Positions 21,234 to 28,014 of a stretch of DNA of 38,341 nt are shown one piece after another; the first letter of the stretch is position 1; each line of letters opens with the position of its first letter. The notes beneath the pieces were generated by a model that did no database searches, was not told the DNA's origin, and saw nothing but the letters and a program-made list of their open reading frames with translations. The stretch covers positions 1-38,341 of the forward strand of contig CAJATL010000205.1 in assembly GCA_903944895.1 (NCBI GenBank). The letters are read 5' to 3'. The translations under genes and the position numbers were made by a program. The DNA comes from an uncultured Bacteroidota bacterium (GTDB lineage Bacteria > Bacteroidota > Bacteroidia > Bacteroidales > 4484-276).

Positions 21234-21870
21234 CGTTACATCAGTTTTGGTTAACAATTAATGTTTTATCACAAATAAAAACATCAAAAGCAGGTTTCAA
21301 AAATACACAAAAAGGATAGCCCACAGCAACCGATAACACATAATCTCCAAAGAAATCATGATTATCGAAAATCCAAAAACCCACATTCAGCATTTTGAAT
21401 GTGGGTTTTTTGGTTTTATATAGGGCCGACCGAATAAACAGATGATCGTCTCCTGACACGGGTTATCAAATCTCATCAAAAATCGTAGTATGATAAAAAT
21501 CCATTGCACAGGGAAAATGAATGATTTTTGGGTTTCAAATAGGTAAATCCGGCATCCAAAAAAACGGATTTAAAAACTTAGAATAGGCTGTAAAAGCGTC
21601 TGTTGTAATTCTTCGCGCGCGTACTTCCGATCTTGATTGCCAAGTCCTGACTTCAGACACCCATCAGGACTTGAAGGAATCAATCATCTGAACCCTTCTT
21701 CTTCCCTACACGACCCAGGAAATTAACCTGCAACTCAAATTTTGTACCCTACACACTATTTCAATTACATTGATTTTGTGTACTTTAAAAGCTCTGCGTT
21801 GCCCTACAACAGAAAAGTTAAAATATTTTATATAAAAATATTAAAACCGAATGAACAAAGCTTAATAGGC
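21234..21870. other. Gene-free divergent region between mscS-like gene and phosphate island
   Basis: No coding frame here has family features. Contents: a bidirectional terminator hairpin at 21375-21411, a 10-bp inverted repeat at 21641-21650/21664-21673, and two strings identical to parts of the Illumina TruSeq adapter at 21624-21633 and 21702-21714. The last 60 bases are A/T-rich promoter-like DNA leading into the DUF47 gene. Confidence 0.6.
21375..21411. terminator. Orphan bidirectional terminator hairpin
   Basis: A perfect 15-bp stem (21375-21389 with 21396-21410; arm AAAAACCCACATTCA) with a 6-nt loop, A-rich before and T-rich after. It sits between two divergent genes with no gene on either side to terminate. 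Confidence 0.7.
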
Positions 21871-21878
21871 TATTTTTG
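21871..21878 (+). promoter_or_regulatory. Predicted -7 element of the phosphate operon
   Basis: TATTTTTG matches TAnnTTTG and lies 21 nt before the DUF47 ATG. No clear TTG is found at the right spacing upstream. A missing -33 element can indicate an activator-dependent promoter, which is inference. Confidence 0.4.
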
Positions 21879-21899: not shown

Positions 21900-22547
21900 A
21901 TGCTAACATTTAAACATGCCACCAAGTCCATCGAACTTATCGAGCGATTTCTATCTCAGGTCGATCAGGGCGTTTTGGTTTTTCAGGAGGGAGTAAAATG
22001 TTATTTGGCCGAAAACCACCAAAGTTTCTCGGATAACCTGCGAACCCTGTCAACATTGGAAACCGATGCAGACATTGTAAAGCGCAAAATCGAAAACCTG
22101 CTCTACACCAGGTCGCTAATGCCACAGCTTCGCGGAGATATCATGCGGCTGCTCGAAGATATCGACAATATTATCGACATGGCCAAATCCAGCCTGTACC
22201 AGTTTGATGTGGAGGTTCCTTACATTCCGGCGGAGTTACATGCTGATTTTATAAAACTAACCGAGGTAAGCGTTGCGGCTGTTGAAACTGTAATTCCTGT
22301 TGCACGGGCTTACTTTCGTGACCCCGAATCGATCAAGGAAAAGATACACCGGGTTTACTTTTACGAAAAGGAGGTCGACAAAATTGCGATGACGCTGAAG
22401 CGAAAAGTTTTCCAGGAAATGACAAACCTGAAACTGAGTGAAAAATTTCATTTGAGGTATTTTACCCTGCACATCGAAAGCCTTTCGGACAGCGCCGAAA
22501 AAGTTGCTGACCTATTATCAATAATGGCTATCAAAAGAACTTTATAA
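21900..22547 (+). CDS. DUF47/PhoU-like phosphate transport accessory protein
   Basis: 215 residues, all alpha-helical in pattern, with the family's heptads (FLSQVDQGVLVFQEGVKCYL; LETDADIVKRKIENLL; RLLEDIDNIIDMAKSS; FYEKEVDKIAMTLKRKVFQ; LHIESLSDSAEKVADLL). DUF47 proteins are PhoU relatives, usually encoded just before a PiT phosphate permease and thought to modulate it. That is exactly the arrangement here: the PiT gene starts 23 nt after the stop. Cytoplasmic, no signal peptide. Length is typical (210-220). It is the first gene of the phosphate operon, with a -7 element close upstream. Confidence 0.92.
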   Translation: MLTFKHATKSIELIERFLSQVDQGVLVFQEGVKCYLAENHQSFSDNLRTLSTLETDADIVKRKIENLLYTRSLMPQLRGDIMRLLEDIDNIIDMAKSSLYQFDVEVPYIPAELHADFIKLTEVSVAAVETVIPVARAYFRDPESIKEKIHRVYFYEKEVDKIAMTLKRKVFQEMTNLKLSEKFHLRYFTLHIESLSDSAEKVADLLSIMAIKRTL

Positions 22548-22570: not shown

Positions 22571-24319
22571 GTGTCACTGTTTCTGATCTTTATTTCCAGT
22601 GGACTTTTTCTGGGTTGGTCGCTTGGAGCAAATGATGCCGCAAACATTTTTGGTTCGGCTGTTGGCTCTAAGATGCTAAGCTTTAAAAAGGCAGCAACCA
22701 TTGCAAGTATTTTTGTGATTCTGGGAGCAGTATTTCAAGGCCGTGGCGGCGCTGAAACTCTTAACGAACTAAGCACCGTGGATGCGTTGGCGGGAGGTTT
22801 CACTGTTTCGTTATGCTCGGCTTTTGTTGTTTTTTTTATGACAAAACGCGGCCTCCCGGTTTCAACAAGTCAGGCCGTGGTTGGGGCAATCATCGGCTGG
22901 TCGTATTTTACAGGCCATGCTATGGACACAAAAGTTTTGGGTAAAATTGTGAGTACCTGGGTGAGTGGCCCATTGCTGGGGATGGGTTTTTCGGCAGGAT
23001 TGTTCGTTTTAACCAGGTTGTTTTTACGTAAATCGAAAATTCACGTTATTAAGCTCGATTATCTGATTCGCGTCGGTTTGATTGTGGCCGGGGCTTTCGG
23101 AGCATACAGTCTCGGAGCTAACAACATCGCCAATGTGATGGGGGTTTTTGTTAGTGCTGCCCCCGAAATTGAGTTAAACTTCGGCCTTTTTACCCTCGAC
23201 GGCGTTCAGTTGCTATTTCTTTTAGGGGGAGTGGCCATTGCAGTTGGAATTTTTACCTATAGTGAGCGTGTGATGAATACTGTTGGAAACGGGCTATTGT
23301 CGCTTTCTCCGGAAGCCGCCATCGTTGTTGTTCTTTCGCACGGTCTGGTATTGTTCGTTTTCTCATCCGTTGCATTTTCTCATTTACTTACCTCAATCGG
23401 GCTTCCATCACTTCCTTTGGTTCCTGTTTCGAGTACGCAGGTTATCATTGGATCGGTGCTGGGGATAGGAATTGTAAAAGGTGCCAGAGAAATCCAGATT
23501 AAAACACTGGTTGGGATCGGGTTAGGTTGGATTGCTACGCCCATTATTTCGGGTGTTGTTACCTTTTTTATGTTGTTTTTTGTGAAAAATGTCTTCGATC
23601 TGAAGGTCACCAGCAGCTTGCCAGCAAAGGAAATGATCGAATCAGCTCCTGCCATTAGCCCTGAAGCCCTTCGCCAGGTGGATTTGATATTACCTGGAAT
23701 TCTGATCATAGCAGCCCTTACCATTTTTGTGCTGATTTATGTGGTGTTCAAACAACAGAAACTTCGGCTGAAAGCCGAAAACGACCTGTTAATCCAGCAA
23801 AACCAACTCTTTTCATCGCAAAAAGCACTCAACGAATTCGAGATTACTGCCATTCAACGCGAAAAAAACCTCCTGCAGACCAAACTGGAATTAAAGAAAA
23901 AAGAATTTACAAACGCTGCCCTCAATCTGACTGACCAACGGACTTTTCTTGACAAAATTTTAGCTGAAATTGAGCAGGTGAAACAGAAAGAGTCCATTAT
24001 TGAGGTAAGAAGTAAACTTCAGGAAATAACACTTCTAATCAGACAACGAATGTCGTTTGCCGGAAAAAAAGAGGATTTAAACAACCATGTTGACCAGGTT
24101 CATAAAGATTTTATCTTAAAACTCGAAAACAAATTTCCAAAACTTACCGAAAACGAAAAACGCCTTGCAACCCTGACCCGGATGAACCTTTCGACCAAAG
24201 AAATTGCCACATTGATGAACATTTCGGCCAAAGGGGTCGAAGTAGCGCGTTACCGGCTAAAGAAAACATTTGGCCTTACAAGGGCCGATAATTTAATTCA
24301 TTTTATTCATAACATTTAA
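22571..24319 (+). CDS. PiT-family phosphate permease fused to coiled coil and LuxR-type HTH
   Basis: Residues 1-365 are a PiT inorganic phosphate symporter. Both inverted-repeat signatures are present, GANDAAN at 19-25 and GANNIAN at 182-188, along with STSQAVVGAIIG and SSTQVIIGSVLG. An extra membrane span (about 374-394) leads into a cytoplasmic coiled coil (396-500, KQQKLRLKAENDLLIQQNQ). A DNA-binding-type helix-turn-helix ends the protein (about 519-582), with TENEKRLATLTRM, LSTKEIA at 540-546 and GVEVARYRLKKTF. This span-coil-HTH module is otherwise known in Bacteroidota at the end of TPR- or sensor-type membrane regulators. The frame is unbroken and the HTH is complete. It starts at GTG 22571, where the first helix begins. 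Inference: a phosphate transporter that also signals to DNA. A pure transporter with a structural tail is the alternative. Confidence 0.93.
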   Translation: MSLFLIFISSGLFLGWSLGANDAANIFGSAVGSKMLSFKKAATIASIFVILGAVFQGRGGAETLNELSTVDALAGGFTVSLCSAFVVFFMTKRGLPVSTSQAVVGAIIGWSYFTGHAMDTKVLGKIVSTWVSGPLLGMGFSAGLFVLTRLFLRKSKIHVIKLDYLIRVGLIVAGAFGAYSLGANNIANVMGVFVSAAPEIELNFGLFTLDGVQLLFLLGGVAIAVGIFTYSERVMNTVGNGLLSLSPEAAIVVVLSHGLVLFVFSSVAFSHLLTSIGLPSLPLVPVSSTQVIIGSVLGIGIVKGAREIQIKTLVGIGLGWIATPIISGVVTFFMLFFVKNVFDLKVTSSLPAKEMIESAPAISPEALRQVDLILPGILIIAALTIFVLIYVVFKQQKLRLKAENDLLIQQNQLFSSQKALNEFEITAIQREKNLLQTKLELKKKEFTNAALNLTDQRTFLDKILAEIEQVKQKESIIEVRSKLQEITLLIRQRMSFAGKKEDLNNHVDQVHKDFILKLENKFPKLTENEKRLATLTRMNLSTKEIATLMNISAKGVEVARYRLKKTFGLTRADNLIHFIHNI

Positions 24320-24328
24320 TTATTTCAC

Positions 24329-25918
24329 ATGAAAAATCTTAAACTACTTCTCGCCCTGATCATGAGCCTGAACCTGGCTTTGGCATTCGGGCAAACAAGA
24401 ACTGTTACCGGCAAGGTTATATCATCGAAAGATAGTGTGCCTGTTGCCAATGTTGAGGTGAGACTAAAAGGAGCCGTTCTCATCACCAAAACCGCTGATG
24501 ATGGCAGGTATTCGGTTGATGTGCCTGTGAACTCATCAGAAATGCTTATTTTTACGCATCCTGATCATGATGAAGTTGAGGTTTATCTCAACAACAGGAT
24601 TGAGATTGACGTTTTGATGCAGGACAATGTGCGTTACAACCAGTATGGTGTCAGAGTAAACCGCAATCCGCTTTACATCGAAGAACGTAACGGAATTCTG
24701 GTTCATGAAAGTAAATCAGGCGACTACAAGTTTTGGTTTGATGCCCGTGTTCAGGTAGATGGAGCCATGTTTTTTGGTGAACCACTCAATCCCATCGGCA
24801 ATGGAACGTCCATCCGGCGTGCAAGGTTTGCCGCCAAGGTTGAGTTTTTAAATAATTGGTATGCCGAAATTGATATGGACATTGCCAATTCTGAACTTGA
24901 ACTCAAGGATGCATACCTGGCCTATGATAACAACAATGGTTTGGAGTTAAAAGTAGGTAATTTTAAAGAAGGATTCTCGATGGAATCAACCACCACCTCG
25001 CGATACCTTACATTTATGGAGCGTCCCAACGCCGTAAACACCTTTGCCCCTTCACGCCATGTTGGGCTTGGTGCAAAATACAACAAGAAATGGTTGCTTG
25101 CTATTGGAGGCATTCATTTCCAGGCCATAGATGACATCGAGGAACGTACTTTCTCGAAAGACAACAATAAAGATTACGGAACCGATGAAGGCGTATCTTT
25201 TACAGGAAGATTAGTTGCCATGCCGCTTTACAACGATTTGGACAAAGGTTTACATTTTGCTGTTGCCGGTTCCTATCGTACTCCTAAATCTGATGCAGAA
25301 GTCCCGGGAACTGTTCGCTATGACACCAGGTCGCTTTCATCAATCAACCGTAAAAAATACATGGACACCGATCTGATCGGAAATGTTGATTATACAACCT
25401 TAACTGGTTTCGAAATGGCTGGTTACCATAAAAACCTCCGCATTCAGGGCGAATATCTGATGAGCAGCATTCATCGTGCTGATTCGGTGGAGCTACCAAC
25501 CGAAAACTTTGATGGCTTTTATGTTTTTGGAAGCTGGCTGGTTTTTGGAGGGAAATACAATTACAACACCACCGAAGGAGAATTTACACAAGTTTCACGT
25601 GGCAAAAAATGGGGCGATCTCGAAGTGGCACTGCGCTATGATTACCTGAGCCTAAACAGTGGTTTTGATAAAATAATGGGCGGAGCTGGTGAAGGTATTA
25701 CTTTAGGACTGAATTATTATGCCAACAACAACGTCAAAATCATGCTCAATTACGCCTACATGAACCACGACAGGTATGCCAGCGGCAAAAATAAATTGTA
25801 TGTCGGGAATGATATTGATGGAAACCTCACCCGCGATCCACGACTTGTGGCAGATCCTGAAGGTGAAGCCGGAGACGATTTCCACATGCTGAGTATCAGA
25901 TTTGAAGTTGATTTTTAA
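24329..25918 (+). CDS. OprO/OprP-type phosphate-selective porin with N-terminal carboxypeptidase-regulatory-like domain
   Basis: 529 residues. Residues 1-21 are a signal peptide ending in AFGQ. Residues about 24-95 form a beta-sandwich of the CarboxypepD_reg type (TVTGKVISSKDSVPVANVEV...DGRYSVDVP), usual on TonB receptors but rare on porins. From about residue 120 the sequence is the porin O/P family (KFWFDARVQVDGAMFF, IRRARFAAKVEF, ELELKDAYLAY, NFKEGFSMES, NTFAPSRHVG), ending in a C-terminal strand with terminal phenylalanine (SIRFEVDF). It should let phosphate or polyphosphate cross the outer membrane. It starts 9 nt after the PiT-HTH gene, so co-transcription and a joint role are likely. 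Confidence 0.92.
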   Translation: MKNLKLLLALIMSLNLALAFGQTRTVTGKVISSKDSVPVANVEVRLKGAVLITKTADDGRYSVDVPVNSSEMLIFTHPDHDEVEVYLNNRIEIDVLMQDNVRYNQYGVRVNRNPLYIEERNGILVHESKSGDYKFWFDARVQVDGAMFFGEPLNPIGNGTSIRRARFAAKVEFLNNWYAEIDMDIANSELELKDAYLAYDNNNGLELKVGNFKEGFSMESTTTSRYLTFMERPNAVNTFAPSRHVGLGAKYNKKWLLAIGGIHFQAIDDIEERTFSKDNNKDYGTDEGVSFTGRLVAMPLYNDLDKGLHFAVAGSYRTPKSDAEVPGTVRYDTRSLSSINRKKYMDTDLIGNVDYTTLTGFEMAGYHKNLRIQGEYLMSSIHRADSVELPTENFDGFYVFGSWLVFGGKYNYNTTEGEFTQVSRGKKWGDLEVALRYDYLSLNSGFDKIMGGAGEGITLGLNYYANNNVKIMLNYAYMNHDRYASGKNKLYVGNDIDGNLTRDPRLVADPEGEAGDDFHMLSIRFEVDF

Positions 25919-25944: not shown

Positions 25945-28014
25945 ATGAAAAATAGTAGAATATTCGCAATGCTGGTAATCATGAGTTTGATTATTACAGC
26001 ATGTGTTAAAGATGAAGTATTTCAAGGCCCGCCGGTAATTAGCAATGTGGTTTTAACTCCACAATCGCCTATCGCAGACCAGGCCGTACAAGTGACCGCA
26101 AAAGTGACCGACCTTAATGGCGTACAAAATGTTACCCTGTTTTACGAAACGGCGGCAAAAGCTTTCACTGAAGTTGCCATGACTGCAACCGGAAGTACCT
26201 ATTCAGCCCAGATTCCTGGTCAGGCTTCTGATGTTACTGTAAATTATTACATCATGGCACAAAACAAACTGGGACTTATCACCTACTACCCTGATGCCGC
26301 TCCAAACACTACGGCAGTATTTACGGTTGGCGCTCCACTTATTGTGTTGAATGAAGTTTACTCGCGCGGTATTCCTGAGGTTGATCCCGACTGGGTCGAA
26401 ATTTATAATGATTCCGATACAGAGGTAAATATTGGTGGTTACACGGTTTATGATAACGGAGGCCAATCAGGAGCAAAACCAAAACTGGCAATACCCGAAG
26501 GAACCATCATTCCTGCGAAAGGATTTTTTGTAGTAGCAACTGACATCGGTGGCGAAAATGGATTTGGCCTTTCCAGTGGCGGCGAAGAAATCTGGCTCGA
26601 AAATACCGGCGGAAACCTCGTTGATAACATTATTTTTCCCGCAATGGAAATTACCCAGTCATTTGGCCGTAATCCTGACGGCAGTGCAACCTGGGAATTG
26701 CTCAATGTGATAACCCGTGGTTTACCCAATTCAACAGCCGCACCACAGGCCATTGTTAAAATCAACGAAATATTCAGCAAGGGAACAACCGAAAATCCCG
26801 ACTGGATCGAAATTTACAATACCTCCGACTTTGAAGCCAATATTGGCGGATATAAACTGTACGATATCGATGGCCAGCTTGGCGCGAAACCGAAAAAAGA
26901 AATCCCTGCCGGAACTGTTATTCCAGCCAAATCATGGTTAGTTATTGTTGTTGACGATGCCGAAGCAAGTGGTTTCGGACTGTCGGGCACAGGAGAAGAA
27001 GTATGGTTTGAAAATACCACAGGTATGATCATCGACAATGTTACCTTCCCTGTACTCGAAGATGGCCAGTCGTATGGCAGATATCCTGACGGAGACGCCA
27101 ATATGCAGGTTTTGTTTGTGATTACAGGAGGAGCAGCCAATGATAACTCAACACCTCCCCCATCCGGAATTGCAGTAATAAACGAACTCAACTCCCGCGG
27201 AACTACCGAAAGTCCTGATTGGGTCGAATTCTTTAACCCATCCGCAAATGATCTGGATATCGGCGGTTACAAAATTTATGACCTCGGAGGCTTTGAAGGC
27301 ACTAAACCAAAGAAAGAAGTTCCTGCCGGTACTATCTTGGCTCCCGGAGCCTGGTATGTTATTGTTGTTGATGACGACGATCCCAATGGAAGCGGATTTG
27401 GTTTATCAAGCGGTGGCGAAAAAATCTGGTTCGAAAATGTTGAAGGAACTGTTGTTGACAGCATCGAATTCCCTGCATTGGAAGAAGGCCAGTCATACGG
27501 CAGATACCCGGATGGAGCCACTTTATGGCAGACACTTTTAATCCCGACACCAGGCGCAGCCAACAATAATTCGACTCCTCCTCCAACGATAACCGTGGTA
27601 GTGAATGAACTATTTTCGAGGGGAACTACCGAAGATCCCGACTGGGTCGAGATTTACAATGGTTCAGCCAGCGAAATCGACCTTAGCGGTTATAAAATTT
27701 ATGATAACGGCGGTTTCGCCGGAACAAAGCCTAAAAAGGAATTTCCTGCCGGAACAGTCATCCCGGCCAATGGATTTTTTGTAATCGTTGTTGACGACGA
27801 TAACCCCGACGGAAGCGGGTTTGGATTGTCGAGTGGTGGCGAAGAAATCTGGTTCGAAGGTCCGGATGGTACGATAATCAATAATTTCACTTTCCCCGAA
27901 ATGGTCGAGGTAACCTATTCATACGGCCGTCAGCCAGATGGAACCGACAACTTTTTTACCTTCACCGAGGTAACAAAAGGTTCATCAAATAATAATGCAA
28001 CCATTCTTCCATAA
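25945..28014 (+). CDS. Lipoprotein with four tandem lamin-tail domains
   Basis: 689 residues. The lipobox IITAC puts the lipidated cysteine at residue 20. Residues about 28-128 form an Ig/FN3-like domain (PPVISNVVLTPQSP...). Four lamin-tail domains follow, starting near residues 132, 270, 409 and 550 (138, 139 and 141 apart), each with NE(V/I/L)xSRG, PDWVEIYN, IxGYxxYD, AGTxIPA, FGLSSGGEEIW and a closing SYGRxPDG. Bacterial lamin-tail domains are typically extracellular and often accompany nucleases, phosphatases or other secreted hydrolases. No catalytic domain is present. It begins 26 nt after the porin gene and is the last gene before a terminator. Role inferred: surface scaffold or binding partner of the porin; unproven. 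Confidence 0.88.
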   Translation: MKNSRIFAMLVIMSLIITACVKDEVFQGPPVISNVVLTPQSPIADQAVQVTAKVTDLNGVQNVTLFYETAAKAFTEVAMTATGSTYSAQIPGQASDVTVNYYIMAQNKLGLITYYPDAAPNTTAVFTVGAPLIVLNEVYSRGIPEVDPDWVEIYNDSDTEVNIGGYTVYDNGGQSGAKPKLAIPEGTIIPAKGFFVVATDIGGENGFGLSSGGEEIWLENTGGNLVDNIIFPAMEITQSFGRNPDGSATWELLNVITRGLPNSTAAPQAIVKINEIFSKGTTENPDWIEIYNTSDFEANIGGYKLYDIDGQLGAKPKKEIPAGTVIPAKSWLVIVVDDAEASGFGLSGTGEEVWFENTTGMIIDNVTFPVLEDGQSYGRYPDGDANMQVLFVITGGAANDNSTPPPSGIAVINELNSRGTTESPDWVEFFNPSANDLDIGGYKIYDLGGFEGTKPKKEVPAGTILAPGAWYVIVVDDDDPNGSGFGLSSGGEKIWFENVEGTVVDSIEFPALEEGQSYGRYPDGATLWQTLLIPTPGAANNNSTPPPTITVVVNELFSRGTTEDPDWVEIYNGSASEIDLSGYKIYDNGGFAGTKPKKEFPAGTVIPANGFFVIVVDDDNPDGSGFGLSSGGEEIWFEGPDGTIINNFTFPEMVEVTYSYGRQPDGTDNFFTFTEVTKGSSNNNATILP

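Follow-up and report, generated by a model that had tools for sequence, protein, structure and literature searches.

The locus raises the question of whether a PiT-type transporter can carry its own DNA-binding domain and use it to switch the operon that encodes it. Comparison across genomes suggests that in many uncultured Bacteroidales it probably does. The window, the whole stretch of DNA that was analysed, is 38,341 nucleotides long. On its forward strand, the frame at 22571..24319 opens with GTG and encodes a protein of 582 residues. The original prediction described this frame as an unbroken fusion of a PiT symporter, an extra membrane span, a coiled coil and a helix-turn-helix (HTH), and the ORF list, Pfam and a structure model confirm it.

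The PiT transporter domain occupies residues 1-350 (22571..23620, forward strand), as identified by Pfam, a PDB relative, alignment and fold. Both predicted signature repeats are present. GANDxAN is found in the first half only, as GANDAAN; the second half reads GANNIAN, with the usual Asp replaced by Asn. C-terminal to this domain is an extra membrane helix (residues 373-395, 23687..23755, forward strand; model and hydrophobicity), followed by the sequence KQQKLRLK. The coiled coil and short helices come next (residues 396-510, 23756..24100, forward strand; models), and the protein ends in an HTH of the LuxR/GerE fold (residues 511-582, 24101..24316, forward strand; profile, alignment and tail model). 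PF01384 (PHO4/PiT) is matched in Pfam at 187 bits against a cut-off of 33.7. The GerE profile scores 18.9 bits at the C-terminus, which is below its cut-off of 23.5. In the 27 aligned members, PF01384 is matched at E 0.01 or better in all 27 and GerE in 26, with L083 as the sole exception. The best GerE score among these members, 34.3 bits in L107, is over the cut-off.

The AlphaFold model of the full protein has a mean pLDDT of 83 and a pTM of 0.63. Its best fold match is the Thermotoga maritima PiT 6L85 (Foldseek E 1e-12, TM 0.64 by target), which is also the sole sequence relative in the PDB. Residues 373 to 471 form a single unbroken helix that comprises the extra span and the coiled coil, and the most hydrophobic windows after the PiT domain begin near residues 371-377. 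The original prediction staked its reading of the tail on a structure model. Modelled alone, the tail forms a long coiled-coil helix, shorter helices and an HTH of the GerE-type fold. This HTH superposes on DosR-C, GerE and NarL at 2.0-2.4 Å over 57-59 residues; the Foldseek probabilities are 0.99-1.00, and the E-values of about 0.07-0.28 are weak. The span and the HTH are present in one modelled chain, and the predicted cytoplasmic side of the tail rests on KQQKLRLK. By the positive-inside rule, this stretch after the span would place the coiled coil and the HTH in the cytoplasm. According to PMC3126765, tag work on human PiT1 and PiT2 suggests an extracytoplasmic C-terminus, and an older model has the C-terminus inside. 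If the PiT C-terminus is extracytoplasmic, the extra span would be what brings the tail inside.

An artefact of one contig was considered and rejected, because fusion and operon are both found again in many families of the order. This is the outcome of the Bacteroidota search that had been proposed as a check, and it removes the concern that the fusion might be unique to this contig. A PiT match at E 1e-20 or better is found in 40 of 393 genomes of the order, the source genome included, and the tail is present in 27 of these 40. An open frame of at least 581 residues surrounds the PiT in 26 of the 40 (with an internal stop in G085, and ending before the HTH at a contig end in G269). The stop codon in G085 breaks the PiT-HTH frame of L072; intact copies occur in its genus (G188 and G279). 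G382 adds a contig-split tailed copy with an internal stop. Four named MAG contigs, assigned to Lentimicrobium or to other Bacteroidales/Bacteroidetes, also contain the fusion, and two of them duplicate the sampled G231 and G373. None of the 33 matching plasmid records covers 80% of the query at one place. In the alignment, the HTH is well conserved and the tailless orthologues stop before any HTH.

In the window's own family, a close PiT match is present in 3 of 12 genomes, including the source genome. In the tree, the window's PiT-HTH groups more closely with copies from other families than with those found in its own. Horizontal transfer or misbinning of the contig (G000:C205) is therefore possible.

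The predicted neighbours, a DUF47 gene before the fusion and an OprP-like porin gene after it, are both present. The first operon gene encodes a DUF47/PhoU_div protein of 215 residues (21900..22547, forward strand; PhoU_div 75 bits). Downstream of the fusion are genes for an outer-membrane porin of 529 residues (24329..25918, forward strand; Porin_O_P 143 bits, with a CarbopepD_reg_2-like match below cut-off) and for a 689-residue, presumably surface-located protein with four lamin-tail-domain (LTD) stretches (25945..28014, forward strand). The order DUF47, PiT-HTH, porin and LTD protein recurs in most tailed loci, and the DUF47 gene adjoins the PiT gene in nearly all loci. On contigs long enough to tell, an adjoining porin is found in 24 of 25 tailed loci but in only one of 12 tailless loci. 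The LTD protein lies behind the porin in most tailed loci.

Upstream of the DUF47 gene is TATTTTTG (21871..21878, forward strand), which we take to be a -7 box of the Bacteroidota type. By eye it has no clear -33 element, in agreement with the original prediction. No known RNA element is found between 21200 and 24400 at the Rfam gathering score. Further upstream is a tail-dependent array of candidate operator boxes, which the original prediction did not contain. On the forward strand of the window, the predicted boxes are TCCCTACA at 21703..21710 (CTACA at 21706-21710), ACCCTACA at 21746..21753 (CTACA at 21749-21753, 43 bp after box 1) and GCCCTACA at 21801..21808 (CTACA at 21804-21808, 55 bp after box 2). 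These cores, at 21706, 21749 and 21804, precede the -7 box by 165, 122 and 67 bp, which would be the position of an activator. Throughout the tailed loci, the boxes are direct repeats of CHCTACA upstream of the DUF47 start, often three in number and about 43 and 55 bp apart.

Up to 300 bp upstream, the 28 tailed loci contain 64 copies of CTACA and 7 of TGTAG; the 13 tailless loci contain 2 and 3, respectively. Of the 28 tailed loci, 24 have a spaced pair, defined as CTACA (or the variant TATACA) at 41-44, 52-57 or 95-100 bp; none of the 13 tailless loci has one. In 200 rounds of shuffling, the number of tailed regions with a spaced pair is 0.48 on average and 3 at most. The four tailed loci without a spaced pair are L064, L073, L084 (which has just 96 bp upstream) and L085. 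The duplicates L080 (of L064) and L076 (of L066) are removed, and L101 and L102, with no DUF47 gene in their contigs, do not enter the array counts. L086, whose HTH is truncated at a contig end, is counted as tailed, and L083, which has no box, is kept apart from both groups in the spaced-pair count. The spacing windows were chosen after the boxes had been seen, and the shuffles used identical windows, so an independent check matters. The base two positions before the core, which was not used in box selection, is C in 54 of 64 boxes against a background of 18%. Columns outside CHCTACA carry little information, which argues for selection on the boxes themselves.

Pairs of CTACA only are found in 20 of 27 operon upstream regions and in none of the 142 regions upstream of other genes at these loci. 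The other control regions with pairs number 7 for TGTAG upstream, 6 for CTACA downstream and 2 for TGTAG downstream, and 5, 6 and 0 of these, respectively, overlap the DUF47 upstream region itself. The exact triple occurs once in the window. In the source genome (7.17 Mb) it occurs only at the PiT operon and in CTACATTC tandem repeats. Across 39 genomes, the exact triple is not commoner than its backward control (16 versus 15). By place, the 16 comprise six at PiT operons, three beside tail-type regulators, three in CTACATTC tandem repeats and four elsewhere. The exact triple takes its meaning from its place and not from its genome-wide frequency. One CTACA triple (L119, G195:C62) lies in a 2.9-kb stretch without a 100-codon ORF, in a genome whose PiT is tailless.

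The three exact triples beside tail-type regulators (L111, L115 and L116) are in other genomes, directly behind genes for TPR regulators (TPR by Pfam). GerE is found in two of these three regulators. A nine-locus tblastn aligns their tails with the PiT tail at E-values of 1e-33 to 1e-20. The arrays beside the stand-alone regulators are oriented oppositely, relative to neighbouring genes, to the array at the PiT operon. Outside the PiT group, the closest relatives of the PiT tails in the tree are TPR-type regulators; the original prediction had likened the HTH to that of Bacteroidota TPR/membrane regulators. The tree data do not reject a single origin for the PiT tails (p-AU 0.165). With L111, L115 and L116 excluded, the regions up to 350 bp downstream of 33 other tail-type genes contain 31 copies of TGTAG and 3 of CTACA (p 8e-7); random sequence of equal make-up gives a mean of 8.3 and a maximum of 19. 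A spaced pair is found downstream in three of these 33 genes against 0.1 by chance. Behind 140 control genes, TGTAG and CTACA number 20 and 41. The HTH class and the CTACA boxes thus appear to go together, and the boxes point to a site that a class of membrane regulators in Bacteroidota may recognise. To our knowledge, recognition sites have been determined for few members of that class.

The array could instead be the site of a separate TPR-type regulator coded elsewhere, with the PiT tail as a competitor or a passenger. Stand-alone regulators with related tails do exist in the order, some with CTACA boxes beside them. This reading is quite unlikely, as the array is missing where the PiT tail is missing (L087) or its HTH has decayed (L083), and the HTH of the PiT tail is strongly conserved in most members. 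No array is seen at the PiT operons (L099 and L105) of the tailless genomes G113 and G092, which do have stand-alone regulators.

Control by the PiT tail itself is further suggested by loci in which one part of the fusion has diverged. Identities are given as percentages to a core set of 16, within which PiT domains are at 69-75% and tails at 47-59%. In L083, the PiT domain is normal (66%), the tail has drifted (38%) and has no GerE match, and the array, porin and LTD protein are not found. In L103, L104 and L107, fast-evolving PiT domains (51%, 49% and 46%) are joined to tails at 52%, 51% and 36%; the HTH, array and porin are kept in all three. Their first signatures read GSKDTVN in L103, GAQGASN in L107 and GTNDTLN in L104, in which N-D is kept. 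The decay appears reciprocal: loss of array and porin accompanies a degenerate HTH, and HTH, array and porin persist where the PiT domain evolves fast. Within one genus, L087 has no tail, array or porin and L088 has all three. L095 is an exception, with a porin and an LTD protein but no tail or array, and its first signature is GANELTN.

In one genus of the window's family, G010 contains the full fusion and G011 has shortened DUF47 and PiT parts with an intact tail. The latter copy (L164, G011:C904, 2010-3477) represents real decay or an assembly error. In G006 (L163, G006:C72, 7433-8131), a membrane-anchored HTH protein of 233 residues without a PiT domain precedes the porin. Its first residues resemble the DUF47 start by eye; it may be a remnant that kept the switch, or an assembly error. 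The three CTACA upstream in G006 are 110 and 78 bp apart in place of 43 and 55 bp. Together with L083, L103, L104, L107 and the L087/L088 pair, the G010, G011 and G006 patterns suggest that array and porin generally track the HTH and not the transporter. In a few members, the transporter part seems to be drifting with the switch retained.

On the tree, the tail state changed about five times (gains or losses), at least two of them on supported branches. L072, with its broken frame, and L102, in which the start is missing, are not in this tree. Repeated change of this kind would be consistent with an accidental fusion, in which the tail is structural and has no regulatory output. Such a fusion is highly improbable given an HTH conserved over many families, a conserved box array and the linkage of the operon. 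Only two independent tail/no-tail pairs are on well-supported branches, too few for significance, which is out of reach for the phylogenetic pairs tests of tail against array and of tail against porin. In these tests L083 counts as tailed, the array test uses rows with at least 300 bp upstream, and the porin test uses loci that no contig end cuts.

In all 44 rows that cover the second signature, its Asp is Asn (GANN). The D506N change in human PiT2 abolishes phosphate transport (PMC6872723, PMC3126765), and the PiT clade has Asn where PiT2 needs Asp506. Some or all members might then be non-transporting, with the PiT domain as a substrate receptor only. The loss of first-signature residues in the fast-evolving L103 and L107, and the change of others in L104, point in the same direction, as does G328, home of L107, which has no other PiT. 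A receptor-only role is nevertheless unlikely. The N-D of the first signature is kept in 40 of 43 rows, and identity within the core set is higher for the PiT domain (about 72%) than for the tail (about 54%). Tailless members also have the Asn, so it marks the clade and not the fusion; their persistence suggests that transport is retained. For the site residues of the T. maritima PiT, the literature gave nothing useful.

The DUF47 partner and the type of porin both speak for phosphate as the most likely substrate. DUF47 proteins elsewhere accompany phosphate PiT genes. Another oxyanion, either sulfate, as for CysP, or arsenate, is a doubtful candidate: the best NCBIfam match is a sulfate permease model, but at 93 bits it is far below the cut-off of 400, and a DUF47 gene adjoins the PiT gene in nearly all loci with a Porin_O_P porin downstream. 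Assignment to the sulfate permease family was rejected, as the CysP-type model is far below cut-off in the window protein and in five relatives. Phosphate flux, which the original prediction took to be the quantity sensed, would be the presumed signal.

The evidence as a whole favours, with fair confidence, a one-protein transceptor that activates its own operon through the CHCTACA array. The PiT domain in the inner membrane would bind, and in most members probably carry, an oxyanion, most likely phosphate. The extra helix, which resembles those of membrane regulators in Bacteroidota, would lead the chain into the cytoplasm, where the coiled coil would pair subunits. The LuxR-type HTH would then bind the array, whose boxes in the window precede the -7 box of the protein's own operon by 67, 122 and 165 bp. 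From this position it would most likely activate rather than repress the promoter, which has no clear -33 element, and so set the level of the DUF47 partner, transporter, porin and LTD protein. Activity is presumably higher when the transporter is empty, and DUF47 may serve as a PhoU-like go-between. Comparison supports the architecture, the conservation of fusion, operon and array, and the co-occurrence of array and intact tail; the HTH fold is seen in the model. The predicted membrane-tethered regulator of its own operon is well supported on this comparative basis, with the conserved, tail-dependent operator array as evidence.

Where phosphate is sensed through a transporter, a kinase pathway (Pst-PhoU-PhoR) is normally required. 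There is a roughly even chance that the transporter wired to a DNA-binding domain, with a PhoU-like DUF47 protein and a multi-box operator, is a one-component counterpart of that pathway, and that in some lineages the transporter is becoming a pure receptor and the switch is kept.

The system would belong among membrane one-component regulators and transceptors. According to Ravcheev et al. 2013 (PMC3878776), the SusR-like membrane regulators of Bacteroides have predicted direct-repeat operators with 67 or 77 bp between centres, thought to sit on one side of the DNA. The PiT-HTH system is predicted to share with them a membrane anchor, a sensor outside, a C-terminal HTH inside and long-spaced direct repeats, the last through its predicted boxes, whose distances differ from those of SusR. 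Unlike SusR-like regulators, it has a complete transporter as the putative sensor, boxes about 43 and 55 bp apart and an operon without SusC/SusD. Bacteroidota TPR regulators, the nearest kin of the tail, share the membrane span, coiled coil and HTH, and three have CTACA arrays beside them; they differ in a TPR sensor in place of the PiT domain and in an array that is reversed relative to neighbouring genes. CbrA of Pseudomonas is a transceptor in which an SLC5 transporter is fused to a histidine kinase (PMC13022988). Both proteins combine a transporter domain and a signalling output, putative in the PiT-HTH protein, in one chain, but the fusion described here has a PiT domain and a DNA-binding domain and no kinase. 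Transmembrane transcription regulators (TTRs) are, according to PMC10269533, one-component regulators that act from the membrane, as proposed here, and are enriched in Bacteroidota; in that text the word transporter occurs once, inside a cited title. With the PiT transporters 6L85 and human PiT2, the window protein shares the fold and the signature repeats; it differs from them in the extra helix, the HTH tail and the Asp to Asn change in the second signature.

Among the matches listed in searches of open-licence PMC papers, no title or abstract start describes a PiT-HTH protein, and no transporter fused to a DNA-binding domain was found in these searches. One protein would be both nutrient gate and gene switch. 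How a transport cycle becomes a transcriptional signal could be tested with this protein and a DNA piece of some 110 bp.

In other classes of the phylum, members of the PiT clade are found in 12 of 395 genomes besides the source genome, and by eye none of them has an HTH. A porin-like ORF is downstream in most of these 12 loci, also by eye. The pairing of PiT and porin therefore seems older than the HTH. Nine of the 12 (L126 and L129-L136) have a hydrophilic C-terminal extension of about 150 residues with no obvious membrane span, which is probably periplasmic. In these extended proteins, the first signature begins with GANH or GANN in L130-L136 and with GAND in L126.
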